Positions 1 to 26,468 of a DNA stretch of 33,539 nucleotides are shown here, one piece after another. The stretch covers positions 1-33,539 of the forward strand of contig LOES01000149.1 of the NCBI GenBank assembly GCA_001515955.1, given 5' to 3'. This DNA comes from Clostridia bacterium BRH_c25 (lineage in GTDB: Bacteria > Bacillota_A > Clostridia > Lutisporales > Lutisporaceae). How positions within the stretch are numbered: the first letter of the stretch is position 1; the number at the start of each line of letters is the position of its first letter. Below the pieces are notes generated by a model. That model was not told where the DNA came from. It made no database searches and saw only the letters and a program-made list of their open reading frames with translations. The position numbers and the translations under genes were made by a program.

Positions 1-479
1 TAATCTTCAACACTGGTTAACAGCGGTGAGCCGTATTTAACATCGGCAAATTTGTCTTTATACGGAGAAACAGCCGCCATCATCTCTTCATATTCATAAC
101 CGTTCATCACATGAGTAGGCTGGACGATAAGCGTGCCTATGCCGTCTGCAACAAGGCGGTTCATTGCCTGGGACAGATTGTCTATTTGAAGCCCGTCACG
201 GCTTGAGAGCTTGTCGATGATGATCTGGCTGGTGAAGGCGCGACGTACTTCATAATCCGGATATTGGGAGGCAATCTGCTTTTCGATTGCTCCTATGGTA
301 TTCTCACGGGTATCATTATAGCTGGTGCCAAAGCTGACGACAAGAATCGCCTTCTTTGATGCATCTCCCACCGCAGTTGCCTCAGCCTCTTCATTATTTG
401 CGGAGACCGGTACCGCACAGCCTGCCAATGCTGCTGTGCACATAACAATTGATAGCATAAATACTAATAGTTTTTTCAT
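1..479 (-). CDS. cbiK: Sirohydrochlorin cobaltochelatase, lipoprotein form (3' part missing)
   Basis: The protein resembles CbiK, which inserts cobalt into sirohydrochlorin or factor II at the entry to the anaerobic B12 pathway. About 159 residues are visible; the C-terminal part runs off the left edge. The chelatase domain starts near residue 44 with AILVVSFGTSYNDTREN, and the conserved metal-site histidine is probably H123 in VQPTHVMNGYEYE; the second active-site His would lie outside the window. The oddity is the N-terminus: MKK, a hydrophobic stretch and the lipobox LAGC with Cys21, so the enzyme should be lipid-anchored outside the cytoplasm, whereas ordinary CbiK is cytosolic. A periplasmic CbiK-P that binds haem is known in Desulfovibrio. 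The start ATG overlaps the stop of the upstream ATPase (ATGA), so it is coupled to a BtuCD-type importer. The family assignment is firm; its role outside the membrane is inference. Confidence 0.88.
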   Translation of the reverse strand, partial: MKKLLVFMLSIVMCTAALAGCAVPVSANNEEAEATAVGDASKKAILVVSFGTSYNDTRENTIGAIEKQIASQYPDYEVRRAFTSQIIIDKLSSRDGLQIDNLSQAMNRLVADGIGTLIVQPTHVMNGYEYEEMMAAVSPYKDKFADVKYGSPLLTSVED

Positions 480-1282
480 TTTATTTCCCTCTCTCTTTCT
501 TGTTTGATTATATTATCGTGAATGAAGAAACCTTTTTTTCCCAGGATTTCAACCTTCACGTCAAACACATCTTCAAAAAATTCCTCTGTCATTACCTGTT
601 CAGGTGGTCCTGCCGCCACAACCCTGCCCTCGTGAAGAGCAATGATCCTGCTGCTGAAGCGGTAGGCTGTGTTCAAATCATGGTTGATTACCACAACAGT
701 AATCCCCTGCTCCTCAATCAGCCCCTTTAATATTTTTGTCATGCTTATCCTGGCACAGATATCCAGGCCGGACATAGCCTCATCCAGGAACAATACCTTC
801 GGCTTTTGCACTATGGATTTTGCAAGCATCACCCGCTGCAGCTCCCCTCCGCTTATCTGCGTAATGAGCTTATCGGCGAAGCGGAAGGTATCCGTCAGGC
901 GCATTACCTGTTCAACCTGGAAAAGTGCTTCATCCCCAAGGGGTTCAAATATGGCACGGTGCGGATGGAGCCCCATAATCACCATTTCAAGGCAGGTATA
1001 GGGGAAGCGGATGCCATGCTGCTGGTAAACTACCGCAAAATGCTTTGCCCTCTCCCTGATGCTCATTTTATGCACATTTTGGCCCCGATAATAAGCAATT
1101 CCCTTTCCCGGTCCGAAATAGCCGCACATGATTTGAAGCAGTGTTGTTTTACCGCTGCCGTTGGGACCCACAATCGACAGATATTCTCCCTTATCTATTG
1201 AAAAACTGATGTTTTTCAGCACAGGCCTTGCCCCATAAGCAAAGGCAATATTCTCAAGGACCAGCAGTGGGAATGCTTCCAT
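476..1282 (-). CDS. ABC transporter ATPase of the FecE/BtuD/FepC family
   Basis: This is the nucleotide-binding subunit of an importer for an iron-siderophore, haem or corrinoid, acting on the inner face of the membrane with the permease encoded just upstream. Walker A (GPNGSGKT), Q-loop (VVYQQHG), signature (ISGGELQRVMLA), Walker B (VLFLDEAMSGLD) and the switch histidine (VINHD) are all present in order. The length of about 268 residues is normal for the family. An open frame extends up to 1342, but the ATG at 1282 has AGGAG nine bases upstream and follows the permease stop by one base; an ATG at 1291 is an alternative. The location at the end of a B12-riboswitch operon favours a cobalamin, cobinamide or other tetrapyrrole cargo over iron; this is inference, since no binding-protein gene is visible. 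Confidence 0.9.
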   Translation of the reverse strand: MEAFPLLVLENIAFAYGARPVLKNISFSIDKGEYLSIVGPNGSGKTTLLQIMCGYFGPGKGIAYYRGQNVHKMSIRERAKHFAVVYQQHGIRFPYTCLEMVIMGLHPHRAIFEPLGDEALFQVEQVMRLTDTFRFADKLITQISGGELQRVMLAKSIVQKPKVLFLDEAMSGLDICARISMTKILKGLIEEQGITVVVINHDLNTAYRFSSRIIALHEGRVVAAGPPEQVMTEEFFEDVFDVKVEILGKKGFFIHDNIIKQEREREIK

Positions 1283-1283
1283 A

Positions 1284-2342
1284 TTATTCATCTCCTGCCC
1301 CCTTCCGCCGCTTTGTAAATATATAGATAAAAAACGGCCCACCTATAAGCGTCGTCAAAACGCCTACGGGAATTTCACTTGTTGTAAGAAGCCGGGTCGC
1401 ATTGTCGGCAATGCTTAGAAGCATTCCTCCCATCAGGGCGGAAAGCGGTATGAGCACACGATTATCCGATGTAAACCAGAATCGGAGCATATGGGGCACT
1501 ATCAATCCGATAAAACCTATGATTCCGCATACGGACACACAGGCCGCCGTAATCCACGAACCTAGAATAAGGTACAGCAGTCGCAGCCGTTTGGTATTTA
1601 CACCCAAAGCTACCGCATTTTTATCACCCATGGCCATGGCATTCAAATCCTTTGAGAACAGAAACGCTATCCCTCCACTGATGCACAAGGCGGGCAAAAT
1701 CAGTGCCACTTCCTTCCACGACCTTGAGGACAGGCTGCCCATAAGCCAGAATACAATTGCACCGACATTCTCGCCGGAAAGCATTTTAATGAAGCTGATG
1801 CCGGAAGATAAAACGGCACTTACAATAATACCCGCAATAATCAGATTGGAAGAGGGCTGCCCTCTTCCTCTGCCTGCAATAAGAATCACCATAAGCAGCG
1901 TAATAAACGCAAAAGCAAATGCGAAAAGAGGAACAGGCACAATTATGCCGTACATAATATTAATAAATATCGCCAGGCTTGCGCCAAAAGCCGCTCCTGT
2001 AGAAACCCCCAGAGTGTACGGGTCGGCCAGAGGATTTTGCAGCAGCGACTGAAATATCGTCCCTGCCATGGCCAGTCCCATTCCGACGCATATACCGCAG
2101 ATGATGCGCGGCAGGCGTATATCCCATACCACCGAAACTATATTGGGTTTTATTCCCTCAAGCAGCTTTTCACTTCCTGCAAGCTTTGCAAGCAGCACAT
2201 TCCAAGTCGTGATCAGGCTTATATTCATCGCTCCGAGGCTGACCATAGAAATCAGCAATGCACATAAAACGAAAAGAAAAATCACCCCGACTATCGCATG
2301 CTTCATTTTTTTCCTTTTATATCGACTTATGCTATCGTTCAT
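1284..2342 (-). CDS. FecCD/BtuC-type ABC transporter permease
   Basis: This integral membrane permease of about 352 residues belongs to the FecCD/BtuC family that moves vitamin B12, haem or iron chelates. It has many hydrophobic segments and family motifs, including RLPRIICGICVGMGLAMAGT near the N-terminus, NPLADPYTLGVSTGAAFGA, and near the C-terminus GIIGFIGLIVPHMLRF, followed by LLSIADNATRLL and EIPVGVLTTLIGGPFFIY. The ATG at 2342 overlaps the cbiJ stop in ATGA and has GGGGAA just upstream; a TTG six bases earlier is less likely. The overlap puts it in the cbi operon and makes a corrinoid or its tetrapyrrole precursor the most likely cargo. The family is certain from motifs; the substrate is not readable from the sequence. 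Confidence 0.9.
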   Translation of the reverse strand: MNDSISRYKRKKMKHAIVGVIFLFVLCALLISMVSLGAMNISLITTWNVLLAKLAGSEKLLEGIKPNIVSVVWDIRLPRIICGICVGMGLAMAGTIFQSLLQNPLADPYTLGVSTGAAFGASLAIFINIMYGIIVPVPLFAFAFAFITLLMVILIAGRGRGQPSSNLIIAGIIVSAVLSSGISFIKMLSGENVGAIVFWLMGSLSSRSWKEVALILPALCISGGIAFLFSKDLNAMAMGDKNAVALGVNTKRLRLLYLILGSWITAACVSVCGIIGFIGLIVPHMLRFWFTSDNRVLIPLSALMGGMLLSIADNATRLLTTSEIPVGVLTTLIGGPFFIYIFTKRRKGAGDE

Positions 2343-3073
2343 TGCCAACTTCCCCTTAGAGCCTTTATCAATTCATCCATATCTTCAATTCCTTTTTCCT
2401 CACATTGCCTTAAAATTACTACGGGAGTTATGCCCAACCTCTTGCAGGCGTTTATTTTTTCCAGGGTGCCTCCCTCTTTGCCGCTATCCTTCATTACTAC
2501 ATAATCAGCGTTATACTCCTTAAACATCTGATAATTCATATCCTCCGATACAGGCCCAAGGATTGCTATTATATCCTCCATCCTGATGCTGCATTGCACA
2601 CACTGCTGAATACTGAAAATAGAGGGCAATACTCTGTAAACAAAACGGTTTGTACCTCTGGCCTTTTCAAAATCCTTAATATTTTTTATTCCTGTAGTAA
2701 AAAGCACACAACCCTCCACACTTTCAAGGTATGAAACGCACCTTTCCACTGATTCGACAAATATACAAGCTTCCATATCCGAGCTTCTTCTTACAAACCT
2801 TATATAAGCTGCACCTGTCTCTTCACTGGCTGTTTTTGCATTTTGTGTTACTTCCAGAGCATAGGGATGAGACATATCAACTACAGTGTCTATGGATTTA
2901 TCTTTTATGAACTGCACCATCTCACTATAGCTCATTCTTCCAACTATCACCTGCCGATCCTGAAGCATTTCTGCACCGCTATAAGTCGCTACGGTTGCAA
3001 CGAATTCCTTTTTGCCCCTAAGCAGACTTATTAATTTCTTAGCCTCGCTGGTTCCGCCTATTACCCATATCAA
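2339..3073 (-). CDS. cbiJ: Precorrin-6A / cobalt-precorrin-6A reductase
   Basis: CbiJ (CobK family) uses a reduced nicotinamide nucleotide to reduce a double bond of cobalt-precorrin-6A in the cytosol. The 244-residue length fits the family. Visible marks are the N-terminal nucleotide-binding strand-loop IWVIGGTSEAKKL, the VDMSHPYALEVTQNA segment around residue 67, the mid-domain VLFTTGIKNIKDFE and the C-terminal VVMKDSGKEGG, which is typical of this reductase. The start is most likely TTG at 3073: it overlaps the cbiH stop codon, and AGGGGG lies eight bases upstream; no in-frame ATG is nearby. It sits between cbiH and the ABC permease, the usual company for the late C-methylation steps. Confidence 0.9.
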   Translation of the reverse strand: MIWVIGGTSEAKKLISLLRGKKEFVATVATYSGAEMLQDRQVIVGRMSYSEMVQFIKDKSIDTVVDMSHPYALEVTQNAKTASEETGAAYIRFVRRSSDMEACIFVESVERCVSYLESVEGCVLFTTGIKNIKDFEKARGTNRFVYRVLPSIFSIQQCVQCSIRMEDIIAILGPVSEDMNYQMFKEYNADYVVMKDSGKEGGTLEKINACKRLGITPVVILRQCEEKGIEDMDELIKALRGSWQ

Positions 3074-3789
3074 AGGGAATACCCCCTAGGTGTAATCATT
3101 TTTCCAGCCTTTATATAGGTGTTGCTGTTACCGATGATTACTACAGTCATCATATCTATGAAATCATAATCAATAGTATCTAAAGTTACTATACACCTGT
3201 CATTTCCTTCTCTTCCCGCATTCTTAACCAGAGCTGCCGGTGTTTCCGGCTTCATATAATTTAAAATAATACCTATTGCTTGATTGATATTCTCCGGTCT
3301 CCCCTTGCTTTTGGGATTATATAAAGCGATTACAAAATCTGCGCTTGCCGCCATATGCAGCCTCTTTTCAATTATCTCCCATGGGGTCAGCAAATCGCTT
3401 AAGCTTATAGTGCAGAAATCATGCATTATCGGGGCTCCTGCCTCGGCAGCGGCGCAAAAGGAGGATGTAACTCCCGGAATAATCTCGACCTCAATATCCT
3501 CTGCCAGTTCAAGTACCGGTCCGGCCATGCCATAAAGTCCCGGATCCCCGGTACTTACAATACATGTATCCAGGCCCTTTCTGGCCTCTTCAACAGCTAT
3601 TCTGCACCTTTCTATTTCACCCTTCATACCTGTCTTGATTATCTTTTTCCCATCTATTAAATCCTTGATCAATTCTATGTAAAATGTATATCCAATAATT
3701 ACATCACACTTACTAATCGTTTTCAGGGCTTTTAGAGTCATATGCTCCTTGTCCCCGGGGCCAATACCTACAACATAAACCTTAGCCAT
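3070..3789 (-). CDS. cbiH: Cobalt-precorrin-3B C17-methyltransferase
   Basis: CbiH (CobJ family) transfers a methyl group from S-adenosylmethionine to C17 and drives ring contraction on the cobalt-early route. The 239-residue protein has the class III methyltransferase signatures: VVGIGPGDKEHMTLKA at the N-terminus, STGDPGLYGMAGPVLE near residue 90, and the CbiH-specific SLSDLLTPWEIIEKR followed by ALYNPKSKGRPENI. The start at 3789 is chosen because AAGGAGG lies six bases upstream and it follows the cbiG stop by one base; a longer frame to 3813 lacks such a site. The context between cbiG and cbiJ fits, since CbiG opens the lactone made by the CbiH product after CbiF acts. Confidence 0.94.
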   Translation of the reverse strand: MAKVYVVGIGPGDKEHMTLKALKTISKCDVIIGYTFYIELIKDLIDGKKIIKTGMKGEIERCRIAVEEARKGLDTCIVSTGDPGLYGMAGPVLELAEDIEVEIIPGVTSSFCAAAEAGAPIMHDFCTISLSDLLTPWEIIEKRLHMAASADFVIALYNPKSKGRPENINQAIGIILNYMKPETPAALVKNAGREGNDRCIVTLDTIDYDFIDMMTVVIIGNSNTYIKAGKMITPRGYSL

Positions 3790-3790
3790 T

Positions 3791-4753
3791 TCATTCCTCC
3801 TTGGATATAGCAATTGTTATTCCATTTATGCCGGTTTTGGGTACTATTATTTTCCCCCCCAAAAGGTGAGCGCAGGGCTCACACACTGATGAGACTCCTA
3901 TTTTTGACTTTACAAAATCGCTGGATGCAAACAGACCTTCTATTTTCGCAATACTTTCCCTGCCGAATATCCTCATACTGCAGCCAAGCTCTTTGCAGGC
4001 TTCTATAATTCCTGACTCATCGCTCTTTATGTCAACTGTCCCTACTGCTTTTATGCTTCTTTTGCTTATATCATACATGTCAAATACTTGATCTACAGCC
4101 TTCAATATATCTTCTTTAGTTTTTCCACGCTTACAGCCAATTCCAATATTAATGTTCCGGGGTCGCAATATACAGCAAGGCCTCTCTGAGGATATTCTCA
4201 GCTTGGAGCTTACAATGACTGAAGCTTCATAATCAACATCAGATATATTATCATAGCCTAATTGGAGCTTAACCTCGGATTCCAGCCTTATTTTCTTATT
4301 TTCTATCATCATAGCTGTTATTTTCTTTGCAGCCTCCAAGCTCTCTATAAATAGGCCGTTGGCCTTTGCAAAAATATCGACAGCCTCAATTGCTCTTCCG
4401 TCTGAGGCAGTTGTTATTATGGGTTGACAGCCCAATATTTCAGAAAGCTTTAATGCCAACTCATTAGCTCCTCCCAAATGGCCCGAAACAAGGCTTATTG
4501 AAAATCTCCCCAAATCATCCACTACAACAATTGCAGGGTCAGCTGCCTTATGACGGAGAAATGACGAAGACAGCCTTACGGCTATCCCTGTGGAGGATAT
4601 AAATAATATATATCTGTATTGTTTGAAAATACTATCAAGCTGCTCCTTATAGCTGTGCTTGTCAAATATATCAACTTCAAAGCTCTCATTACTCTTAATC
4701 CTGTTTGCAATCTCAATACCTGATGATGTAAAAGCTATACAGGCCAGCTTCAT
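3791..4753 (-). CDS. cbiG: Cobalt-precorrin-5A hydrolase
   Basis: CbiG opens the delta-lactone of cobalt-precorrin-5A and releases acetaldehyde (the lost C20 unit), a step specific to the anaerobic pathway. The 320-residue protein shows the three expected parts: an N-terminal domain beginning KLACIAFTSSGIEIA, a central segment with VSGHLGGANELALKLSEILG and ITTASDGRAIEAVDIFA, and the C-terminal CobE/CbiG domain with NIGIGCKRGKTKEDI and the closing VPKTGINGITIAISKE. The start ATG at 4753 overlaps the cbiF stop in ATGA. Its presence, together with cbiD and cbiK, identifies this as the cobalt-early rather than the oxygen-dependent route. Confidence 0.94.
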   Translation of the reverse strand: MKLACIAFTSSGIEIANRIKSNESFEVDIFDKHSYKEQLDSIFKQYRYILFISSTGIAVRLSSSFLRHKAADPAIVVVDDLGRFSISLVSGHLGGANELALKLSEILGCQPIITTASDGRAIEAVDIFAKANGLFIESLEAAKKITAMMIENKKIRLESEVKLQLGYDNISDVDYEASVIVSSKLRISSERPCCILRPRNINIGIGCKRGKTKEDILKAVDQVFDMYDISKRSIKAVGTVDIKSDESGIIEACKELGCSMRIFGRESIAKIEGLFASSDFVKSKIGVSSVCEPCAHLLGGKIIVPKTGINGITIAISKEE

Positions 4754-5505
4754 TTGCCGCCCTCCCTGAAAGCGTGGCTGAAATCAGGATGATATAAAAG
4801 GGACCTCTCATAATCTCCCTCAATAAAGTTACCCACCAGAATCTGAGAGAAATTGCTGATACCCTCATTCCTAACCTTGTCTGCAATGTTCCGAAGTGTT
4901 CCGTATATTATCCTCTGCTCCGGCCAGGTGGCTTTATAAACAACTGCCACAGGCACATCATAGCTTTCATAGCCCTTGGCAAGCTTTTCAACTATCTTTT
5001 CCATATCCTGCACAGAAAGGAAAATAGCCATAGAGCATTTATGCGCCGCTAAAAGCTCCAAGCTCTCAGCCTCAGGAACAGGTGTCCTGCCTTCCAGCCT
5101 TGTAATTATCACTGTCTGGCTGACACCCGGCAAGGTAAATTCTCTTTTTATAGCCGCACAGCCGGCTGTGAATGAGCTTACTCCCGGTATGACTTCATAT
5201 GGTATATTATGCTCCCGGAGACAATCCAGCTGTTCTCTTATAGCACCATAAATAGTGGGGTCCCCCGTATGAAGCCTTACAGTTGTTTTCCCCCCGGTCT
5301 CCGACTCCAGCATAACCTCAATTACTTCTTCCAAAGTCATTGAAGCACTATTATATGCCTCGCATTCCTTTTTGCAAAACTCCAGATGTGCATTCCAGAC
5401 CAGAGATCCGGCATAAATGACAACATCAGCTGCCTCCAATATTCTTCTGCCCTTTACAGTTATCAAATCCACATCTCCCGGACCGGCTCCTATGAAATAA
5501 ATCAT
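4750..5505 (-). CDS. cbiF: Cobalt-precorrin-4 C11-methyltransferase
   Basis: CbiF (CobM family) methylates C11 of cobalt-precorrin-4 using S-adenosylmethionine. The 251-residue sequence carries FIGAGPGDVDLITVKG at the start, VIYAGSLV shortly after, the RLHTGDPTIYGAIREQ loop near residue 90 and EVIPGVSSFTAGCAAI, all typical of this enzyme. The start at 5505 has GGAGG seven bases upstream; the open frame to 5538 has no ribosome site. Unlike its neighbours it is not overlapped by the preceding gene: 189 bases containing a large inverted repeat separate it from cbiL. A TTTCGCGAAA palindrome (5524-5533) lies just upstream of its ribosome site. Confidence 0.94.
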   Translation of the reverse strand: MIYFIGAGPGDVDLITVKGRRILEAADVVIYAGSLVWNAHLEFCKKECEAYNSASMTLEEVIEVMLESETGGKTTVRLHTGDPTIYGAIREQLDCLREHNIPYEVIPGVSSFTAGCAAIKREFTLPGVSQTVIITRLEGRTPVPEAESLELLAAHKCSMAIFLSVQDMEKIVEKLAKGYESYDVPVAVVYKATWPEQRIIYGTLRNIADKVRNEGISNFSQILVGNFIEGDYERSLLYHPDFSHAFREGGK

Positions 5506-5564
5506 CTTAAGACCTCCAATGCGTTTCGCGAAAAACATTTAAAATTACTACAATACCTTGCCGG

Positions 5565-5694: not shown

Positions 5695-6360
5695 TTATTT
5701 CTGACCTGCCTTCCTTGCAAATATCAGGGACATGTAATCATTGTCCTCCAGCATTTCCTGCCTGTCGTATATTATTTTCTGACCTGCCTGGGTACATCTT
5801 TTTACATATGCATAGCTGAAACCGTACTGCTCCAGCTTGCCTATTATATTCTCCTTATCCTTGCTAACCTTCAAAATACACACTGTATCAACCCTTTTAA
5901 GTATTTCCTCATCAATATTTCCATCGGCCATATAAAAGCTTTCATCCCGCAGAGCAACCGGGAGTCCCAATACAGAAGCTGCCGCATTGAAAGAAGTGAT
6001 ACCCGGTATTGTTTCAGTTGTTATCTTTATATCAGCAAGCTCCTTCATCAAATAGCTATAAGTGCTGTATGTCATCGGATCACCGAGAGTAAGAAAAACT
6101 CCTGCCTCATCATCCTTCAAAACTTCATTTATTGTTTGTGCTGCTTGCTTATAACGCAATTGATTGTCTTCCTTCATAGGAAAGCTCAGTTCAACTACTT
6201 TCTTATCCTTTATGTATTCATGGGAGATAATGCCTGCAAGACTATCGCCCTTGCTCTCCGGTATAAAGACGCAGTCGCAGGTTCTGATAATCCTGTATGC
6301 TTTCAGAGTTATCAGCTCTTTGTCTCCAGGCCCGACGCCTATTCCATATATCATTTTCAT
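5695..6360 (-). CDS. cbiL: Cobalt-precorrin-2 C20-methyltransferase
   Basis: CbiL (CobI family) adds the methyl group at C20 of cobalt-factor II/cobalt-precorrin-2, the first methylation of the corrin branch. The 221-residue protein opens with MIYGIGVGPGDKELITLKA, then CVFIPESKG, and has LTLGDPMTYSTYSYLM near residue 90, which is characteristic of CbiL, followed by ETIPGITSFNAAASVLGLPV. The ATG at 6360 overlaps the cbiT stop in ATGA and has AAGGGGA upstream. It is the last gene before the inverted repeat that splits the operon. Confidence 0.94.
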   Translation of the reverse strand: MKMIYGIGVGPGDKELITLKAYRIIRTCDCVFIPESKGDSLAGIISHEYIKDKKVVELSFPMKEDNQLRYKQAAQTINEVLKDDEAGVFLTLGDPMTYSTYSYLMKELADIKITTETIPGITSFNAAASVLGLPVALRDESFYMADGNIDEEILKRVDTVCILKVSKDKENIIGKLEQYGFSYAYVKRCTQAGQKIIYDRQEMLEDNDYMSLIFARKAGQK

Positions 6361-6908
6361 GGCTTTTTCCCCTTTATAAGAAAAATAGGATTATTTGCCT
6401 TCATAAGTCCCATTCCTTCAATAATGGAGGCTTGTATAAGCCTCACTTCAATCCCGGAATACTTCTTTTCCATCAATATTCTCTTCAGCTCTACCATATT
6501 TTCGGGAATGATGAAGCTTCCAGCCAACACACCGCCATTTGAAAGCTTTTTATCTGTTTCATCCGCAATTTGCACAAGCTTTCCACTGCTTCCGCCTATA
6601 AAGCATTTATTGAAGCTATTAACAGAATCCAGGGCATCAGGAGCAGTACCTTGAATAATGTTTATTTCTGCGCCGAACTTACCGGCATTTTTTCTTATCA
6701 GCTCTACTCCCTCCTGTTCCTTCTCCACCGCATACACCTCAGCTCCCAGAAGTGACGCCTGCACCGATAAGGAGCCTGTTCCTGCACCTACATCCAGAAA
6801 TATGTCTCCTTTATCAATATCAAGCAGCGCCAGAGCTATAACTCTTATATCAAACTTCGACATGGGGACAGCTCCTCTGATAAATTCCTCATCTCTAATC
6901 CATTTCAT
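6357..6908 (-). CDS. cbiT: Cobalt-precorrin-6B C15-methyltransferase (decarboxylating)
   Basis: CbiT methylates C15 and removes the acetate carboxyl at C12 of cobalt-precorrin-7/6B; in many organisms it is fused to CbiE as CobL, but here it is separate. The 183-residue Rossmann methyltransferase shows RGAVPMSKFDIRVIAL near the N-terminus, the S-adenosylmethionine-binding loop FLDVGAGTGSLSVQASLLG around residues 38-56, and AVEKEQEG at the end of the second strand. The motif usually reads TK-x-E-[IV]-R; here it is SKFDIR, a mild deviation. The start overlaps the cbiE stop by 14 bases, which implies tight coupling of the two partner enzymes. Confidence 0.92.
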   Translation of the reverse strand: MKWIRDEEFIRGAVPMSKFDIRVIALALLDIDKGDIFLDVGAGTGSLSVQASLLGAEVYAVEKEQEGVELIRKNAGKFGAEINIIQGTAPDALDSVNSFNKCFIGGSSGKLVQIADETDKKLSNGGVLAGSFIIPENMVELKRILMEKKYSGIEVRLIQASIIEGMGLMKANNPIFLIKGKKP

Positions 6909-7491
6909 TTTCTATCACCACCAGTGCTAATGTGCTTATATCCTCGATTTCTTCGCCTATTCTTTTTTCTGCTATACGCTCGTCATCATAAGATAAATTA
7001 AAGCCCGCATATATTTTCCCCTTTAACCCGTTATCCCTGAGACAACAGGATATATAACCGGGTGTATGTTTGCTGTCCGCAAGAATTATAGCTGTCTTAT
7101 ATTCTTTGATGCTTTGAAGCCCGGCTTCTCTTCCGTGAAAGCTTATAAGAGCTGCATCATGCCAGCTTTTTTTCAGCTTCGCCATCATGTATTGGATGGA
7201 AGAAAGTCCCGGTACTACTTCATCTATATTAATTCCTTGCTTTTGAAGAAAGTCCAATATACCATAAAAGCACGGATCCCCGGAGGCCAGAATAACTGTA
7301 TTCATTCCTGCTTCCAGCATTCCAGGCACTTCATCCACTTTATTTATCACCCGGATATCTGTTCTTATCTCTTTAGCTGTTCTTGCGATTCTTCCAAAAG
7401 CCAAGACTCTGTCTGCCTCTTTTATTCTCTCTATTGCTTCTACCGTTATATGCTTCATACTTCCGGGACCCATACCCACAAGACTAATCAT
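6895..7491 (-). CDS. cbiE: Cobalt-precorrin-7 C5-methyltransferase
   Basis: CbiE acts with CbiT in the late methylations, transferring a methyl group to C5 from S-adenosylmethionine. The 198-residue protein has the tetrapyrrole-methyltransferase opening ISLVGMGPGSMKHITVEA, the ILASGDPCFYGILDFL loop around residue 80 and VVPGLSSIQYMMAKL after it. The start at 7491 is supported by GGGAGG five to six bases upstream and overlaps the 3' end of cbiD by eight bases; the longer frame to 7512 has no such site. It is the shortest methyltransferase of the set, as usual for stand-alone CbiE. Confidence 0.92.
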   Translation of the reverse strand: MISLVGMGPGSMKHITVEAIERIKEADRVLAFGRIARTAKEIRTDIRVINKVDEVPGMLEAGMNTVILASGDPCFYGILDFLQKQGINIDEVVPGLSSIQYMMAKLKKSWHDAALISFHGREAGLQSIKEYKTAIILADSKHTPGYISCCLRDNGLKGKIYAGFNLSYDDERIAEKRIGEEIEDISTLALVVIENEMD

Positions 7492-8563
7492 TGTTACCTC
7501 CCAATACCCCATAGTCCATGGAATACATTATTACTTTAATGGATAAATTGCTGTGCTTCAAATATCTTCTAATTCTATCTTCACAGCCTTTTATCATAGC
7601 TGGGAATATCTTTTCATTACCTGTTTCTATAATTAACTTTACTGCTTCCTCTGAGGTCTTGCAGCCGTTTATGTTTTTCAGAAGCTGCAGAGATGCTCCA
7701 TGGAGAGCAAGGTAGTATACAAAAGCCTCAATACGCACATCACATGTTTTGCTGTGAGTATTGAAGACCCCTATGGAAAGCTTGCACAGCTTACCGATGT
7801 GTCCCACTAATGTAATACTTTTAAAGCCCTTCTCATTAATGTATGACAGAGTATCCCCGATAAAGTTGGATATCTTGATCCCTCTTCCCCCCAGCTTTAG
7901 ATCCTTTACTACCTTTTCTCCGTAATTCCCGGGAAATAAGACAAGCTCTTCAACTCCACTGTCGTATGCGGAATCAACCTCAAGATAAATTGTTTTCTTC
8001 AAAGCATCCTCTGACATTGGCTCAACAATTCCGGATGTTCCGATTATAGATATCCCTCCCTCAATTCCAATATTCTCATTGAAGGTTCTTTTTGCAATTT
8101 CTGTACCCTCTGGAGCATATATGACCACATTAAAACCACACTGAGAAATTTTATTCAACTCTTCCTTTATCATCTTTCTGGGAACAGGATTTATTGCAGC
8201 TTGACCTGCCTCTCCCCAGAAGCCCCTGCGGGTAATTGTGCCTATGCCTTCCCCCCCGTCAATATTGATTACTCCGTCAGCCCGTCTGCTTACACGGGCA
8301 TATATCTCAAGCTTATCAGTAACATCCGGGTCATCTCCCGCATCCTTTACAATGCAGCAGCTTGCGTATTTTTCTTCTATACAGGGCTTGCATACTTGAA
8401 GCTCCAGTTTTATGCCTGCAGGAATCTCAATGTCTATATGATCAATTTTCTCACCGGTAACAAGCATATTCGCTGCTGCCTTGGCAGCTGCAGCGGCGCA
8501 GCTTCCGGTTGTATACCCGCACCTTAGCTTCTTTCCATCCTTAATCACAAAAAGATCATGCAT
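7484..8563 (-). CDS. cbiD: Cobalt-precorrin-5B C1-methyltransferase
   Basis: CbiD methylates C1 of cobalt-precorrin-5B and is a hallmark of the anaerobic route; it is not related to the other corrin methyltransferases. The 359-residue protein has the family's RCGYTTGSCAAAAAKAA near the N-terminus, DAGDDPDVTDKLEIYA around residue 75, the glycine-rich GGEGIGTITRRGFWGEAGQA, AINPVPRKMI, and further on LVLFPGNYGEKVVKDL and LVGHIGKLCKL. The ATG at 8563 overlaps the cbiC stop. Its ribosome site (GGTGGG) is weak, consistent with translation carried over from cbiC. Confidence 0.95.
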   Translation of the reverse strand: MHDLFVIKDGKKLRCGYTTGSCAAAAAKAAANMLVTGEKIDHIDIEIPAGIKLELQVCKPCIEEKYASCCIVKDAGDDPDVTDKLEIYARVSRRADGVINIDGGEGIGTITRRGFWGEAGQAAINPVPRKMIKEELNKISQCGFNVVIYAPEGTEIAKRTFNENIGIEGGISIIGTSGIVEPMSEDALKKTIYLEVDSAYDSGVEELVLFPGNYGEKVVKDLKLGGRGIKISNFIGDTLSYINEKGFKSITLVGHIGKLCKLSIGVFNTHSKTCDVRIEAFVYYLALHGASLQLLKNINGCKTSEEAVKLIIETGNEKIFPAMIKGCEDRIRRYLKHSNLSIKVIMYSMDYGVLGGNND

Positions 8564-9182
8564 CTCTACCCACCGCCATGTAAATCAAAGCATTCATAAT
8601 TGCAGCCGCTACATTGCTGCCTCCTTTTGTTCCCACTGTCGTAATCGATGGAACCTCAAACCTTCTTATATATTCTTTGGACTCTGCCGCTCCTACAAAG
8701 CCCACAGGTACCCCTACAATGAGCTTGGGAGAAACCCTGCCTTCACTTATCAGCTCACCTATTCTAAAAAGTGCTGTTGGTGCATTCCCTATAACAAATA
8801 TATCCACTCCGGTCTCGGCAGCATGATCCATGGCTGCCATTGACCGGGTTATCTGCTTTTCCATCGCGATTCTGTAAATCTCCTCTTCGCTTATGTAACA
8901 GTCTATACTGCAGCCTGCCGCCTCCAAGCTTCTCTTGTTTATACCGGAGAAGGCCATTTTAGTATCAGTCACTATTCTGCAGCCGGATTTTATCGCTGAT
9001 ATTCCGGCATGGATTGAGCCTTTTTTAATCGTTATTATATTTTGATAATCAAAGTCCCCGGTAGTATGTATGGTCCGCTTTATTACCTTCAGCTCCTGCC
9101 TGTCGAAATCTCCGGTGTTCATTCCCTGGTCAATGATTTCCATACTTTTCGCTTCAATGGCTTCAGGATTTTTTAAATACAT
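8556..9182 (-). CDS. cbiC: Cobalt-precorrin-8 methylmutase
   Basis: CbiC (CobH family) shifts the methyl group from C11 to C12 of cobalt-precorrin-8, giving cobyrinic acid. The 208-residue length is typical. Key segments are IKRTIHTTGDFDYQNII around residue 35, which holds the conserved catalytic histidine, SGCRIVTDTKMAFSGINK, IGNAPTALFRIGELI, and VGVPVGFVGAAESKE with the closing KGGSNVAAAIMNAL. The start at 9182 lies six bases after the cbiA stop, with AGGTG upstream. Placement right after cbiA is common in clostridial cbi operons. Confidence 0.94.
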   Translation of the reverse strand: MYLKNPEAIEAKSMEIIDQGMNTGDFDRQELKVIKRTIHTTGDFDYQNIITIKKGSIHAGISAIKSGCRIVTDTKMAFSGINKRSLEAAGCSIDCYISEEEIYRIAMEKQITRSMAAMDHAAETGVDIFVIGNAPTALFRIGELISEGRVSPKLIVGVPVGFVGAAESKEYIRRFEVPSITTVGTKGGSNVAAAIMNALIYMAVGRDA

Positions 9183-9188
9183 AACAAT

Positions 9189-10496
9189 TCACCTGTTCCT
9201 CTCTATGCTGTTTAAAATATTCTTTAATACCTGCAGGTTGCCTATAAAGCTGATGTGGGGATAGCCTCCATAAGTGTTCTTATGTATATATCCGCCTTCC
9301 CACTTTTTATTGCCCATAGTCTTTGATATGGCAAATATTTTATCGTCCTTTACATCTGTAACAGACTTGTGAAACTCATGGGCGGTTATCTTGTCCCCCT
9401 TCTTTCCCAGCATGCAGTCAGCTTTAAGCTCAATATCCATATATCCAAAGTTTTGCAGAGTTTCGGTCAGCATGCTTTGTCCTGGAAATACCCCAACCAT
9501 CGCTTCTCCATCAATGCTGTCCGTAAGGTACATGAAGCCCCCGCACTCAGCATAAATATAACCACCCCTTTGACTGTATTCCTTTATTGAACTGAGCATG
9601 GCTTTGTTTTTTGCCAGCTCCTCCTTAAAAACCTCAGGATATCCTCCACCCAGATATAACAGGTCACATCGCGGCAAATTGTTATCTTCCAGGGGTGAGA
9701 AGCAGGTTACGTCACAAGCCGCCTCCAAAAGACTGAGGTTCTCACTATAGTAGAAGGAAAATGCTTTATCCTTTGCAATAGCTACTGTTACATCATATTT
9801 TCCGATTGCCGTCTCTCTGCTTGTATTGATATCTGTCATTAACTTTATAATTCCATCAAGGTCAATATTAGTGCTTACCATTTTGGAAATCTCTTCGATT
9901 TGGAAGTCAATGTCTTCAAGCTCAATACTCTGAACTAATCCAAGATGGCGGCTTTTAAGCTCCACAGCATCCATTGGGGGTAAAAAACCCAATACTTTTA
10001 GCTTGGTATGCTTTTCCACGGCTTCTTTGAGCATTTCATAATATTTCTCACTGATATTGTTAAATATTACGGCTTTGATATTTGAAGCCTCGAACTCAGC
10101 CATTCCTTTTATCTTTGGTATTGCTGAGAACATCTCTCCCTTGGGCGTATATACCAGGATGGAATTGATGCCCAATTCCTTCGAAATATCATAGCTGGAG
10201 TTTATACATGTGTTATATATCCCGTCAAAATAACCCATAGCTCCCTCTATTACACAGTAATCTGCAGCTGCCATTGAAAATGCCGATAAAAGTCCCTCCT
10301 TGCCCTGCAGGTGCATATCCAGATTGCCGTTTCTGCCTTTGCAGGCTTTTCCAAGAAAAGCTCCGTCAATATAATCAGGGCCTGTTTTAAATGCACAAAC
10401 ATCAAGTCCCATATTTTTCATAGCCCTGAGAATTCCCATGGTGAGGGTTGTCTTTCCACTGCCGCTTGCGGGTGCTGTTATCAGTACCGATTTCAT
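9189..10496 (-). CDS. cbiA: Cobyrinate a,c-diamide synthase
   Basis: CbiA amidates the a and c carboxylates of cobyrinic acid using glutamine and ATP. The 435-residue protein has two domains: an N-terminal dethiobiotin-synthetase-like ATP-binding part starting ITAPASGSGKTTLTMGILRA with KTGPDYIDGAFLGKA, and a C-terminal glutamine amidotransferase with the nucleophile Cys in YAECGGFMYLTDSI and the GATase histidine region AHEFHKSVTD. It is the first gene of the operon although it catalyses the last step encoded here. The start at 10496 has GGGAG upstream. A cobalamin riboswitch with a terminator precedes it, so the whole operon should be turned off by coenzyme B12. Confidence 0.95.
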   Translation of the reverse strand: MKSVLITAPASGSGKTTLTMGILRAMKNMGLDVCAFKTGPDYIDGAFLGKACKGRNGNLDMHLQGKEGLLSAFSMAAADYCVIEGAMGYFDGIYNTCINSSYDISKELGINSILVYTPKGEMFSAIPKIKGMAEFEASNIKAVIFNNISEKYYEMLKEAVEKHTKLKVLGFLPPMDAVELKSRHLGLVQSIELEDIDFQIEEISKMVSTNIDLDGIIKLMTDINTSRETAIGKYDVTVAIAKDKAFSFYYSENLSLLEAACDVTCFSPLEDNNLPRCDLLYLGGGYPEVFKEELAKNKAMLSSIKEYSQRGGYIYAECGGFMYLTDSIDGEAMVGVFPGQSMLTETLQNFGYMDIELKADCMLGKKGDKITAHEFHKSVTDVKDDKIFAISKTMGNKKWEGGYIHKNTYGGYPHISFIGNLQVLKNILNSIERNR

Positions 10497-10528: not shown

Positions 10529-10563
10529 TAAAAAAATTGGAACCTCCAAAAGAGGTTCCAATT
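10529..10563 (-). terminator. Riboswitch-controlled terminator before cbiA
   Basis: Read on the minus strand, a perfect 12-bp stem (AATTGGAACCTC paired with GAGGTTCCAATT, five-base loop) is followed directly by a run of seven T residues. It lies between the cobalamin riboswitch and the cbiA ribosome site, exactly where a ligand-controlled transcription terminator is expected. Confidence 0.9.
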
Positions 10564-10823: not shown

Positions 10824-10852
10824 ATTATAGCACGTAAATATTAATAAGTCAA
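10824..10852 (-). promoter_or_regulatory. Sigma-A-type promoter of the cbi operon
   Basis: On the minus strand TTGACT (10847-10852) and TATAAT (10824-10829) are separated by exactly 17 bases. Transcription would begin about 15-20 bases before the riboswitch aptamer. It lies within 90 bases of the 3' end of the zinc operon's last gene, so the cbi operon has its own promoter. Confidence 0.85.
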
Positions 10853-10887: not shown

Positions 10888-11385
10888 CTAATTCACCACA
10901 AATTCTGTTCCGCGCTCTGCCAGCACTTCAAGCTCTGTTGCATTAAGATGCATATAGTCTATCCCGTCTTCATTCACAATTTCAAGGTATCCGGTGACAC
11001 TAAGCCAATCATTGTCCTTGGGGTATTCGCCATCCCAAACAAACTCAAATCCGGCGACTCCATCATTTCCACAGCAGCCCGGACCATTACGGATAACCCC
11101 ATGTACCGTTTCACCATCTACTTCAACTATAGTATGGAAACCCTCAAGCTTTATTTTTTTACCCATGTAATCATCCGGATTCAGATAGATATCATTTATC
11201 TGGGTTATAAACATTTTCTCTTTTATTTCCACAATTTCTTCTTCCAAAGCTTCTTCTACAGCAGCCGGAGCATTTTGTTCCCGGATAGCGGACTCTGCAG
11301 GAACACCGTCATTTTTACCGGCACATCCGAACATTACAGATATACTTATAAAGAAGATCAATATAACTTTAATTTTTTTCCTCAT
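10888..11385 (-). CDS. Small lipoprotein of the zinc operon with a Cys-Cys motif
   Basis: This predicted lipoprotein of 165 residues has a positively charged start (MRKKIK), a hydrophobic stretch and a lipobox VMFGC with Cys21, so it should be anchored outside the membrane. Residues 23-55 are a low-complexity, acidic linker. The folded part (about 56-165) contains DIYLNPDDYMGKKIKLEGF, IRNGPGCCGNDGVAGFEF with C104-C105, and DWLSVTGYLEIV. This pattern looks like the OB-fold-like C-terminal domain of the TIGR03943/YcgQ family that accompanies zinc-stress genes, but I am not certain of that link. It starts ten bases after znuB and closes the zur-znu operon, so a role in zinc capture or metallation is inferred from context. 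Confidence 0.8.
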   Translation of the reverse strand: MRKKIKVILIFFISISVMFGCAGKNDGVPAESAIREQNAPAAVEEALEEEIVEIKEKMFITQINDIYLNPDDYMGKKIKLEGFHTIVEVDGETVHGVIRNGPGCCGNDGVAGFEFVWDGEYPKDNDWLSVTGYLEIVNEDGIDYMHLNATELEVLAERGTEFVVN

Positions 11386-11395
11386 ACCTATCCCC

Positions 11396-12217
11396 CTATG
11401 ACCTTTTTAAAACAAGTCCCAAAGCTGAAAATGCTCCAAAATTTAAAATGTTAACAACAACTATACTTGCACCGGCAGGAAGCGAGAAGGCAAAGGATAC
11501 AACAATTCCTGCCAGGAAACAGATTATAGAAATTATAGCAGAGCTTGTTACCACACTCTTAAAGCTTTTAAAAACACGCATCGATGTAAGAGCCGGAAAA
11601 ATTATCAGGCTTGAAATAAGCATGGTACCCATGATCCGCATGCCTACAACTATTGTAATTGCTGTTAATAAGGCAATAAGCATATTATAGTTATCCGCCT
11701 TTGTGCCTGTGGCCTTTGCGAAGTTCTCATCAAAGGTAACGGCGAAAATCCGATTGTAGAATATGATAAACAAGGTAAGTACAACTATTGACAGTACAAC
11801 GCTCATATATACATCACTCTTGCTCATGGCAAGGATGCTGCCGAACATATAGTTGCATACATCAGTATTCATACCGCTGACAATAGAAGTCACAATAATA
11901 CCGATTGCCAGGGCGCTGCTTGAAATAAGTGCAATTGCCGCATCTCCTTTGATCTTGCTGTTTTCACTTATTCTAAGCAGCAAAAATGCGGCTGCAACTA
12001 CTACTGGAATCGACACTTGCAAGGGCGCCATGTTCATTGCCATAGCAACTGATAATGCACCAAAGCCTACATGGGAAAGTCCGTCACCTATCATTGAGTA
12101 GCGCTTTAGTACAAGGCTGACTCCAAGCAGTGCCGCACAAAGGGAAACCAAGCTTCCAACAATTATTGCCCTTACAATAAATGTATAGGATAAAAGTTCA
12201 GTTAACAGCTTAATCAT
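11396..12217 (-). CDS. znuB: Zinc/manganese ABC transporter permease
   Basis: This ABC-3 family membrane permease (273 residues) forms the channel for a divalent metal, most likely zinc. It is strongly hydrophobic throughout, with the family segment LVLKRYSMIGDGLSHVGFGA near residue 37 and, later, MGTMLISSLIIFPALTSMRV and a glycine/alanine-rich last helix (FAFSLPAGASIVVVNIL). The start at 12217 overlaps the ATPase gene's end by eight bases and has AGGAGG eight bases upstream. Metal choice follows from the Fur-family gene and the histidine-rich binding protein in the same operon. Confidence 0.92.
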   Translation of the reverse strand: MIKLLTELLSYTFIVRAIIVGSLVSLCAALLGVSLVLKRYSMIGDGLSHVGFGALSVAMAMNMAPLQVSIPVVVAAAFLLLRISENSKIKGDAAIALISSSALAIGIIVTSIVSGMNTDVCNYMFGSILAMSKSDVYMSVVLSIVVLTLFIIFYNRIFAVTFDENFAKATGTKADNYNMLIALLTAITIVVGMRIMGTMLISSLIIFPALTSMRVFKSFKSVVTSSAIISIICFLAGIVVSFAFSLPAGASIVVVNILNFGAFSALGLVLKRS

Positions 12218-12920
12218 TCTGACTACCTCCTAAAAAGCCTTTGCTGATATTACTGGAAAGATAGTCGGAAGTATTTCCAAAGAACAGGGCTTTGGTTCCC
12301 ATATGCAGAATTTTATCTGAATTTTGCACAGCGCTGCTTACGTCATGTGATACCATTAATATTGTAATATCATTTTCACGGTTAAGCTTTTTAACGAGTG
12401 TATAAAATTCAGCTGTTATAATCGGGTCAAGCCCTGTTACAGGCTCATCTAAGACGAGAATTTTGTCTGTGGCGCAAAGAGCCCTTGCAAGTAGGACCCT
12501 CTGCTGCTGTCCCCCGGATAAATCACGATAGGACTTTTTCTTGATTTCCTCAATATTAAGCCTTCTCAAGCTTTCGGATACTCGGGTTTTTTCTTTTTTT
12601 GAATAAAAAGGATTCATACCCCTGCTGTTCAGACAACCCGAAAGCACTACTTCAAATACACTTGCAGGAAAATCTCTCTGCACAATAGTCTGTTGTGGTA
12701 AATATCCTATTTCAGTTTGTTTTACTCCGTTTTCAAATGTTATACTTCCGGATTTATACTTTATCAAGCCTAGAATTGCTTTAATAAGTGTACTTTTCCC
12801 CGAACCATTTTCACCAACTATAGCTATATAATCACCGGCAGAAACATCAAAGGCAACATTGTCAATTGCAAGTCTGTTTTCATAGCTGACAGACACATTT
12901 TTGCAGGAAATCTGCATCAT
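12210..12920 (-). CDS. znuC: Zinc ABC transporter ATPase
   Basis: The 236-residue ATPase that powers the importer shows Walker A GENGSGKSTLIKAILGL, Q-loop IGYLPQQ, signature LSGGQQQRVLLARAL, Walker B ILVLDEPVTGLDP and the switch histidine in MVSHDVSSAV. Two ATG codons in tandem (12920 and 12917) could start it; GAGGGG lies about ten bases upstream of the first. It begins one base after the znuA stop, so the three transporter genes are in one transcript. The A1-C-B gene order matches znu/adc/mnt-type clusters of Firmicutes. Confidence 0.92.
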   Translation of the reverse strand: MMQISCKNVSVSYENRLAIDNVAFDVSAGDYIAIVGENGSGKSTLIKAILGLIKYKSGSITFENGVKQTEIGYLPQQTIVQRDFPASVFEVVLSGCLNSRGMNPFYSKKEKTRVSESLRRLNIEEIKKKSYRDLSGGQQQRVLLARALCATDKILVLDEPVTGLDPIITAEFYTLVKKLNRENDITILMVSHDVSSAVQNSDKILHMGTKALFFGNTSDYLSSNISKGFLGGSQND

Positions 12921-12921
12921 A

Positions 12922-13890
12922 TTATTTTAGCCCCTCTTTCAAATTTTCTGCATTTTGTTTCATTAGTGACAGATATGTAACTCCATTATTAAATTCATCC
13001 TTTGAGACATTATGGCAGGAGTGAAGCAATAGCATTTTTGCGCCTGTTTCATCACTTATTGATTGAGCTACCTTGGGTGTAGTCAACTCCTCGTAGTAAA
13101 TCACAGGGAACTTTTCTTTCCTTATTTCATCTATAAGCCCTGCAACAACCTTTATGCTGGGTTCTGTTTCAGTAGAGCAGGAATCATATGCAGCCTCATA
13201 TTCAAGTCCATATTGCTTAGCGAAGTAATAAAATGCAAAACGCCCACCAAAGATGATTTCCTTTCTGCTGCCATTCTCCACAATCTCTTTAAACTCTTTA
13301 TCCAGATCATCAAGCTTCGCCTTATAATCAATAGCGCTTTTCATATAGTATTCTGCATTAGCAGGATCAATCTCACAAAGTGAGACAGCAATATTATCTA
13401 CCATTATCTTAGCATTGTTAGGATCTGTCCAAACATGCGGGTCAAATTGGTGGTCGTGGTCATGCTCTTCATGGTCTGCGTCATGCTCGTGCTCCTCTGC
13501 TTTTTCCAACGCTATATTTGTAGAAGCATCGAGCACAACAACAGCTTTATTGCTGATTCCGTCAATTATACGCTGTGCCCATGGCTCCATATATTGTCCT
13601 GTATAAATGAACAAGTCTGAGGAATTGATTCTTATAATATCCTCAGGGGTAGGCTCATAAGAGTGGCTTTCCACCCCGGCAGGCATGAGCATTATTATAT
13701 CTGCCTTATCTCCTGCAATCTGGCGTGCAAAATCATATTGAGGGAAAAGAGTTGTAACAATACTGATTTTTTTATTTTCTGCTATAGCACTGTCACTGCC
13801 GCTTTGTGCTGTTTCTGTGGAAGAACAGCCCATAACAGTCAATACTAAAAGTACCATAACAATACATAACGCAATTATTTTTTTTAACAT
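12922..13890 (-). CDS. znuA: Zinc-binding lipoprotein of the ABC importer
   Basis: This cluster A-I solute-binding protein (about 322 residues) captures zinc outside the membrane and hands it to ZnuB. A signal peptide ends with lipobox VMGC (Cys22). The mature part has IVTTLFPQYDFARQIAGDKA, metal-ligand histidine in MPAGVESHSYEPTP, a His/Asp/Glu-rich loop (HEHDADHEEHDHDH) typical of zinc rather than manganese proteins, DPHVWTDPNNAKIM, and a C-terminal LLLHSCHNVSKDE. The start at 13890 is preceded by AAGGAGG; the open frame extends to 13950 but would overlap the regulator gene and has no signal peptide. Confidence 0.93.
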   Translation of the reverse strand: MLKKIIALCIVMVLLVLTVMGCSSTETAQSGSDSAIAENKKISIVTTLFPQYDFARQIAGDKADIIMLMPAGVESHSYEPTPEDIIRINSSDLFIYTGQYMEPWAQRIIDGISNKAVVVLDASTNIALEKAEEHEHDADHEEHDHDHQFDPHVWTDPNNAKIMVDNIAVSLCEIDPANAEYYMKSAIDYKAKLDDLDKEFKEIVENGSRKEIIFGGRFAFYYFAKQYGLEYEAAYDSCSTETEPSIKVVAGLIDEIRKEKFPVIYYEELTTPKVAQSISDETGAKMLLLHSCHNVSKDEFNNGVTYLSLMKQNAENLKEGLK

Positions 13891-13934
13891 TAAAAAATCC
13901 TCCTTATACAATGTTTTGATAGAGAGTACTCTCC

Positions 13935-14342
13935 CTATATAGCACCACATTTTTCACAGGTACCATATAAAACAGTTTTTAAGTTATCCATTTTGAAGCA
14001 ATGATGATTCAAAATATGGTCTCCCACCTTGTCAAGGTAGGTACATTCAATATGAAACAGCTTACCGCAGTCATTGCATATCAAATGATAGTGCATATGG
14101 CAATTATCATTATCAATGTATTGATAGCAAGCACTTAGGCCTTCTACACCACCATATTTTCTCACCTTACCCTCCTTTGCAAGCAAGTCGAGAAAACGGT
14201 ATACAGTGGCTTTCCCAACCGGATTGCCCGTATTTTTAAGATGATCTACTATACTATCTGCTGTTATATGATCTTTTTTGTTTTTGTGAATAAAGTCGAT
14301 AATTATTTCCCGCTGTTTTGTGTTATAGTTCCCCCTTACCAT
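13935..14342 (-). CDS. zur: Fur-family metal-responsive repressor, probably Zur
   Basis: This 135-residue Fur-family regulator has an N-terminal winged-helix DNA-binding domain (TKQREIIIDFIHKNK then GKATVYRFLDLLAKEGKV) and a C-terminal metal-binding dimerisation domain with HMHYHLICNDCGKLFHIEC and a second CEKCGA pair at the C-terminus; the two CxxC pairs form the structural zinc site. It is the first gene of the operon and is followed after 44 bases by znuA, so zinc is the likely effector. Its own promoter overlaps a Fur-like palindrome, consistent with autoregulation. The Zur assignment rests on the neighbours; Fur, PerR or Mur cannot be excluded by sequence alone. Confidence 0.88.
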   Translation of the reverse strand: MVRGNYNTKQREIIIDFIHKNKKDHITADSIVDHLKNTGNPVGKATVYRFLDLLAKEGKVRKYGGVEGLSACYQYIDNDNCHMHYHLICNDCGKLFHIECTYLDKVGDHILNHHCFKMDNLKTVLYGTCEKCGAI

Positions 14343-23431: not shown

Positions 23432-23508
23432 TTTTTACCTCTTTCCCGATATAATATATGATCTGTATTTATATGCCCAATAAGGGTTCCTTTGTCGCCG
23501 CTGCATTT

Positions 23509-24477: not shown

Positions 24478-24491
24478 ACTCCGGCCTCCTT

Positions 24492-25475: not shown

Positions 25476-25558
25476 ACTTTCAACTACTCCTTTCCAGTAA
25501 ATTTGGTATAATATATATCAACTTCCTGATTAATTGCAAATTCAACTGTACTATATTA

Positions 25559-26455: not shown

Positions 26456-26468
26456 TTTTATACCTCCG

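Follow-up and report, generated by a model that had tools for sequence, protein, structure and literature searches.

A lipoprotein CbiK beside a FecCD-type importer in a B12 riboswitch operon: a candidate surface entry point for the corrin ring and its cobalt

The cobaltochelatase CbiK has been treated as an intracellular enzyme whose metal supply is set by the buffered availability of cobalt inside the cell (PMC7689651). Why, then, should a copy of CbiK carry a lipoprotein signal peptide and be encoded in a cobalamin (B12) operon, directly after the genes of an importer? The copy in question lies on contig LOES01000149.1 of Clostridia bacterium BRH_c25, of which positions 1 to 33,539 were analysed (33,539 nucleotides, hereafter the window).

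We put at about one in two the probability that this CbiK belongs to a B12-riboswitch module through which a ring already carrying cobalt reaches the anaerobic corrin pathway from outside the cell, most likely cobalt-sirohydrochlorin (cobalt-factor II). The module comprises a surface CbiK, a substrate-binding protein (SBP), a FecCD permease, an ATPase and, in many relatives, a surface protein with a predicted NEAT fold; the window holds one end of it. Metal-free sirohydrochlorin, from other organisms or from the cell itself, would be bound at the surface. The lipoprotein CbiK, judging from its kept catalytic motifs, would insert Co2+ there, and the SBP, together with the NEAT-fold protein where present, would pass the product to the FecCD importer. 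Inside, CbiL (where present) and the remaining Cbi pathway would complete cobyrinate. The proposal starts from an export signal, an operon, a riboswitch, the adjoining SBP of relatives and co-occurrence with CbiD, and also from the frequent absence of another recognisable cobaltochelatase, of CbiM, HemC, SUMT and SirC; to these it adds that CbiK would act on the ring outside and that the importer would carry its product. More broadly, in many gut-type anaerobes the cobalt-inserting enzyme of B12 synthesis seems to be kept outside, beside an importer. Many of these bacteria, it appears, cannot make the precursor, which may be taken from neighbours, loaded with cobalt outside and imported. We hold more tentatively the extension to many anaerobic Firmicutes, in which cobalt insertion would have moved outside, with sirohydrochlorin shared between organisms, metallated at the surface by a lipoprotein chelatase with NEAT-fold carriers, and entering as Co-sirohydrochlorin with the cobalt.

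An exported chelatase in a riboswitch-controlled operon

By reading, the minus strand of the window from 10852 to 3 is one operon, in which the riboswitch and a hairpin are followed by cbiA, C, D, E, T, L, F, G, H and J, the FecCD permease, the ABC ATPase and lastly cbiK, cut by the left edge. Most adjacent genes overlap, and the largest gap, between cbiL and cbiF, is 156 bases. An earlier note on this DNA, made from the letters alone, had described B12 riboswitch control, a permease following cbiJ and a cbiK start overlapping the ATPase stop. All three were confirmed: the RF00174 covariance model scores 100.2 bits against a gathering score of 31.5, the permease after cbiJ falls in the FecCD family, and the cbiK ATG overlaps the ATPase TGA as ATGA.

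The visible half of CbiK matches Pfam CbiK PF06180 over profile positions 1-113 of 262 (E 9.7e-40), and in the PDB it matches CbiK 1qgo/2xwp, FetB 9b86 and the chelatase 2xvx, which we take, like 2xvy and 2xvz, to be Desulfovibrio vulgaris CbiK-P. The NCBIfam equivalog NF047852 gives 127.5 for this half and 268.3 for the related protein of locus L001, both below the cut-off of 400 (loci and genomes are prefixed L and G). In the first 21 residues a K-K n-region and a hydrophobic core lead up to LAGC, whose Cys is Cys21. They pass a simple classifier for lipoprotein signals, which uses hydropathy and a lipobox pattern and is not a trained signal-peptide predictor; the signal peptide and lipobox of the earlier note are thereby upheld. 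The CbiK domain begins at residue ~42 (42 or 43). Relatives were selected with the N-terminal half of the window CbiK, and the best 80 of 422 (from 550 pattern matches) in species genomes are used below. The same export test is passed by 73 of the 80, a rate biased upward because they were picked by similarity to that N-terminal half.

The catalytic motifs appear to be kept. The window half contains HVMNGYEYEE, whose Glu is presumably catalytic, while the positions of His145 and His207 would fall in the half beyond the edge. By pattern, GHG and [AS]G[DE]H are each found in 80/80 relatives and the Glu motif in 77/80.

It is highly improbable that the protein has a dual location, with an internal start yielding a cytosolic CbiK from the same gene and the outside form a side product. 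In the window gene an in-frame GTG at codon 37, after the lipobox, has a Shine-Dalgarno (SD)-like GAGG eight bases upstream, and 36 of 73 relatives have a start codon between the Cys and the domain (SD-like motif in 11/73); the other 37 have none, and fusions such as CbiK-NEAT would place the whole chain outside. Such fusions of CbiK and a NEAT-like domain in a single polypeptide occur at L015, L024, L025, L050, L072, L076 and L077. Tandem pairs of CbiK domains in a single polypeptide are encoded at L030:9842-12133, L070:4139-6280 and L078:9827-11578, the first two of which score for a NEAT-like domain too, and in L162, L166, L168, L171, L172 and L173 the signal peptide is separated from the CbiK domain by an additional stretch of ~90 residues or more.

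With no SBP gene in view, CbiK itself had been suggested as the binding protein. The absence of an SBP from the window is uninformative because half of cbiK and everything beyond it lie past the edge. The importer subtype of the window is shared by 13 relatives' loci, namely 12 with more than 350 bits to the window permease and L002, whose permease gene is broken by masked bases. All 13 have a gene for a PF01497-type SBP beyond cbiK. The lack of an SBP in the window is therefore probably due to where the window stops, and given these genes in relatives the idea of CbiK as its own binding protein finds no support. In 12 of these loci the SBP start lies at the cbiK stop, from 178 bases before it to 101 after (longest frames); at L080 the SBP lies ~2 kb past cbiK, after a TonB receptor gene. 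The Pfam PF01497 match was checked for the SBPs of L001, L027 and L080, and the L001 SBP has a C-terminal S-layer-like stretch at 20.7 bits, just below the Pfam cut-off of 20.8. Across the retrieved DNA of all 80 loci, an SBP is present in 73 and a same-strand FecCD gene in 73.

The riboswitch also recurs. Of 21 module loci scanned, 17 are preceded by a same-strand RF00174, and it is present in 7/7 module loci without a cbiC-to-cbiJ cluster in the retrieved DNA, four of which have a weak cbiA-like gene downstream. The module loci without it are L003, L006, L040 and L080, whose operon heads may lie outside the retrieved DNA. Among scanned loci with a cytosolic CbiK, 3/10 have one.

The companion surface protein of many relatives is predicted, by structure comparison, to have a NEAT immunoglobulin-like fold, which it would share with the haem-transfer domains of IsdX1, IsdC and IsdH. 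Unlike these, its genes occur with cbi genes, and identities in structural alignments are 5-18%. Pfam NEAT PF05031 (cut-off 32.8) is not passed by any of five companion proteins (18.5 and 17.6 bits in two, the other three unlisted), and a sequence-only profile of the NEAT-like family retrieved no NEAT chain from the PDB, its single chance match having E 0.29. A rival explanation is a haem iron system, in which the lipoprotein would act on haem to release its iron (the role proposed for IhtB/FetB) while iron or porphyrin is taken up by the importer. FetB 9b86 aligns with nearly the full length of the L001 protein, the companion has the predicted fold of haem-binding NEAT domains, and IhtB is thought to strip iron from haem (PMC10913741). 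This explanation is nevertheless very unlikely given the B12 riboswitches upstream in 17/21 module loci, the location of the genes inside cbi operons and the co-occurrence with CbiD described below; riboswitches and CbiD together disfavour haem iron uptake as the main role.

Gene content and the point of ring entry

A class sample of 293 genomes, drawn from the class of G006 (L007, Marasmitruncus massiliensis) and not chosen by signal peptide, was searched with CbiK, CbiD, CbiM, CbiX and HemC models, and CbiK neighbourhoods were fetched and read. The sample was requested at completeness 90; the results show no completeness values. G261, G179, G080, G130 and G108, with partial, broken or odd CbiK matches, were dropped before cross-tabulation. 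Where a low-scoring CbiK match was in fact the CbiX gene, it was entered as CbiX (E under 1e-20, 21 genomes), and L137 and L173 were scored as exported after their N-termini were read, L173 having a signal peptide without a lipobox.

Exported CbiK is found in 18 of the 293 genomes, with a lipobox in 17, and all 18 fall among the 89 CbiD-positive genomes; it was counted in 0/204 CbiD-negative genomes, from which two odd partial matches were excluded. No second CbiK or CbiX is present in 13 of the 18, and a second CbiK in the other five (G021, G175, G273, G366, G329) is cytosolic or probably so, that of G329 (L139) having an unclear start. Compared with the 66 CbiD-positive genomes that have a cytosolic CbiK or CbiX, exported-CbiK genomes rarely have CbiM (3/18 vs 60/66; Fisher P 2.3e-9, kinship being ignored in all P values given here) and less often have HemC (7/18 vs 59/66, P 2.8e-5), which is present in only 2 of the 13 without a second chelatase (P 2.2e-7). 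The earlier note had called for a survey of lipoprotein CbiK beside FecCD genes; with neighbourhoods read by eye, an SBP and FecCD lie within 5 kb of CbiK in 14/18 exported and 3/45 cytosolic cases. HemC is absent in 12/17 genomes with an SBP-FecCD neighbourhood vs 5/46 without (P 8.8e-6).

Other arrangements also occur in the class sample. In G126, G194 and G281 (L155, L152, L153) a cytosolic CbiK stands beside SBP-FecCD-ATPase genes and HemC is absent; here, perhaps, import comes first and chelation inside second. In the CbiD-negative G130 (L186), genes for an SBP, a FecCD permease and an ATPase adjoin a CbiK-like frame that is only partial, and CbiD-positive genomes without a counted cobaltochelatase are G080, G102, G233, G315 and G356.

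The genomes of the 80 relatives were searched in the same spirit, that of L005 being excluded from genome-wide searches. CbiK is at a single locus in 73/79, with second loci over the cut-off in G016 (partial), G021, G054, G059, G065 and G066; among 39 of these genomes, a separate CbiX is found in one and CbiM over its cut-off in seven. A set of 53 genomes with the exported CbiK type was made up of the 18 above and 35 more from the first 39 relatives. HemC was not found in 32 of the 53, nor was SUMT in 34, a SUMT call being TIGR01469 over its cut-off (the match of G032 is just under, at 176.2 vs 185). Of the 39 relatives, 23 have none of HemC, SUMT and strong SirC, the last defined as PF13241 at E under 1e-15; at E under 0.001, 38/39 genomes match, which were taken as other NAD-binding proteins.

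Genomes that lack HemC, SUMT and SirC have no known route to uroporphyrinogen III, precorrin-2 or sirohydrochlorin, but their cbi genes are retained; for a working pathway, the ring must therefore come in at the sirohydrochlorin stage or later. It is this gene content that points to entry from outside. CbiL is present in 4/11 cbi regions of HemC-negative exported-CbiK genomes (G006, G098, G162, G163), and cbiL adjoins cbiK or importer genes in L031, L052, L055 and L078. In CbiL-bearing genomes the gap between the absent early steps and the retained later ones is filled, among the genes seen, by the exported CbiK alone, and this is the core of the argument. The earlier proposal that a tetrapyrrole is metallated or captured outside the cell and then imported gains comparative support, which points to a ring at or after sirohydrochlorin, for cobalamin synthesis.

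One possible objection is that the importer takes only finished corrinoids (B12, cobinamide); the lipoprotein CbiK would then be accessory or a relic, with cobalt inserted inside the cell by another chelatase, unrecognised or moonlighting (SirC/Met8, for example). Among the models that the permease and ATPase match well are indeed BtuC-like and corrinoid-importer ones: the best NCBIfam models are BtuC, FhuB and F420-0 permeases for the former, and haem, corrinoid and F420-0 importer ATPases for the latter. All are below their cut-offs, and no NCBIfam Btu model is passed (best BtuC 261.2 bits, cut-off 461; BtuD 141.3, cut-off 281). A strong SirC/Met8 match is present in 15/15 HemC-positive genomes among the 39, and cbiL missing from 7/11 regions would fit a decaying pathway; the 23/39 genomes without HemC, SUMT and strong SirC stand on the other side. 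So do the catalytic motifs kept by pattern in 80/80 relatives and the absence of a counted exported CbiK from all 204 CbiD-negative genomes, though salvage would be the only need there. On balance we regard uptake of finished corrinoids alone as unlikely.

Quite unlikely, too, is a cobaltophore cycle, in which the cell's own sirohydrochlorin would be exported, loaded with cobalt outside by CbiK and reimported as Co-sirohydrochlorin, replacing CbiM. CbiM is indeed mostly absent, and the contigs of L003, L006 and L011 (= G003, G005, G010) join SUMT (frames of ~500 residues), cbi genes and the lipoprotein CbiK in genomes with no other CbiK or CbiX. Such a cycle is inapplicable to the 32/53 genomes without HemC, and G005 and G012 have CbiM beside HemC.

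Several observations weigh against the main proposal. No cbiL was found in 7/11 cbi regions (G007, G018, G052, G154, G209, G267, G310), and G209, G267 and G310 have only two genome-wide matches to the methyltransferase model TIGR01469. The regions concerned, all in HemC-negative genomes, are L192, L193, L194, L196, L199, L200 and L201. Where seen, CbiL proteins match TIGR01469 at ~39 to 53 bits, and cbiL may lie elsewhere in the HemC-negative G011, G022, G028 and G033 because a match of that range occurs away from their cbi clusters; where CbiL is truly absent, a later ring may be imported or the pathway may be decaying. HemC is kept in 21/53 genomes. The nearest CbiK relative of the window, G002, has HemC, CbiM and CbiX. 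The other near neighbour on the tree, G006, lacks HemC and SUMT but has a SirC-like domain fused to CbiJ (at L191:11579-12814, a CbiJ fused to a SirC/CysG N-terminal-like domain). The gene-content evidence comes from relatives, not from the window's own genome, most relatives are draft metagenome-assembled genomes, and a substrate is assigned for none of these SBPs. The CbiD-negative G130 and G261 have the odd partial CbiK matches excluded from the counts, one beside SBP-FecCD genes and the other behind a hydrophobic stretch. Finally, the associations are not phylogenetically independent. On a CbiK tree of 98 rows, made by a quick method, the exported/cytosolic state changes 6 times, giving only 5-6 independent contrasts, which are too few; in an independent-pairs test CbiM absence goes in the expected direction without reaching significance (3.3 vs 0.2 pairs on average), and HemC loss is unsupported (0.9 vs 0.6).

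Layout of the window

The features of the operon are collected in Table 1, in which cbi gene names were assigned by NCBIfam models. The hairpin before cbiA is the probable expression platform of the riboswitch. Over the whole region, promoter-like sites (24 vs 27.2 in shuffles) and terminator-like sites (8 vs 8.9) show no excess; the listed promoter-like site is the best of the former, and the listed hairpin has the longest stem of the latter.

Table 1. Riboswitch-controlled operon of the window, in order of reading
Feature	Coordinates	Strand	Evidence
Promoter-like site, TTGACT-17-TATAAT with TG	10824..10852	-	11/12 consensus matches, directly before aptamer
Cobalamin riboswitch aptamer RF00174	10619..10812	-	full length, E 3.9e-24
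Intrinsic-terminator-like hairpin, 13 pairs, T tail	10535..10563	-	before cbiA
cbiA (cobyrinic acid a,c-diamide synthase)	9189..10496	-	NF002204 404 bits, above cut-off
cbiC (precorrin-8X methylmutase)	8556..9182	-	NF004057 287.8 bits, below cut-off 311
cbiD	7484..8563	-	TIGR00312 above cut-off
cbiE	6895..7512	-	TIGR02467 above cut-off
cbiT	6357..6908	-	TIGR02469 above cut-off
cbiL	5695..6360	-	TIGR01467 above cut-off
cbiF	4750..5538	-	TIGR01465 above cut-off
cbiG	3791..4753	-	NF004466 above cut-off
cbiH	3070..3813	-	TIGR01466 above cut-off
cbiJ	2339..3073	-	profile matches; overlapped by permease gene
FecCD-family ABC importer permease	1284..2348	-	PF01032 E 4.4e-89
ABC importer ATPase	476..1342	-	PF00005; longest frame from GTG 1342, likelier ATG ~1291
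Lipoprotein CbiK, N-terminal 159 residues, cut by window edge	3..479	-	signal peptide 1-20, Cys21

Elsewhere in the window, a protein with a DUF1980 C-terminal domain adjoins an ABC-3 family importer operon (10888-14342), which we take to be a probable zinc uptake system with a Fur-family regulator. Two genes, presumably for N-acyl-D-amino-acid deacylase-like proteins, stand on either side of a peptide ABC importer (21791-30810).

Comparison with known systems

If the proposal is true, one of the longest pathways in nature is divided between organisms at about the sirohydrochlorin stage, and candidate genes can be named for the uptake route that genome surveys predicted (PMC6461909). Tetrapyrrole precursor salvagers were defined there by Shelton et al., with use of 5-aminolevulinic acid (ALA) verified in three species. 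Salvagers have corrin genes without early tetrapyrrole genes and are primarily Firmicutes, one class starting at precorrin-2 (PMC8123684). Only the ALA users were verified, and the parts of PMC6461909 at hand name no uptake system for later precursors; the module would be the missing route of the precorrin-2-level salvagers. Reconstructions that count any CbiK as the pathway chelatase, such as the rule in PMC6593275, could miscall self-sufficient B12 producers. Moreover, if the sole CbiK is outside the membrane, metal selection depends on the milieu, which breaks the intracellular assumption.

Desulfovibrio vulgaris CbiK-P, which the earlier note had cited as a partial precedent, is a real one, being an exported CbiK of the same family as the window protein; it is periplasmic and haem-binding and occurs beside a second, cytosolic CbiK. 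A closer precedent is given below. In Desulfovibrio cbiK-cbiL and btuCDF are under the control of a single B12 element, and deltaproteobacteria with cbiK lacked any known cobalt transporter, a role for which cbtX was predicted (PMC545781, 2004). In Sulfurospirillum, cbiK adjoins btuC, btuD and btuF inside the cbi cluster (PMC7755780), a likeness in gene order. In the parts of the open-licence PMC literature covered, we found no description of extracellular cobalt insertion for B12 or of a sirohydrochlorin importer.

The closest known system is Iht/FetB of Porphyromonas gingivalis, which consists of the TonB receptor IhtA, the CbiK-like lipoprotein IhtB/FetB, the SBP IhtC, the permease IhtD and the ATPase IhtE (PMC10913741). 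The window has the same combination of a CbiK-like lipoprotein with a FecCD permease and an ATPase; no TonB-dependent receptor was recognised by eye among the window frames, the cluster being cut by the edge. L080, from Treponema, links the two, with the order CbiK, TonB receptor, SBP, FecCD, ATPase and then cbi genes; its receptor gene (L080:5289-7232), between the lipoprotein CbiK and the SBP, gives a layout like that of the P. gingivalis iht genes. P. gingivalis lacks precorrin-2 synthesis, as stated in PMC6461909, and the proposed uptake route would explain how it can nevertheless run a corrin pathway. Iht has been presented as a TonB-receptor system for haem/iron; the genes of the module lie within cbi operons under riboswitch control, chiefly in Clostridia-type bacteria, and often have a partner with the predicted NEAT fold. 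The individual parts are thus already known; their reading as an entry point for both ring and cobalt, with the chelatase outside, was not encountered in the literature covered.

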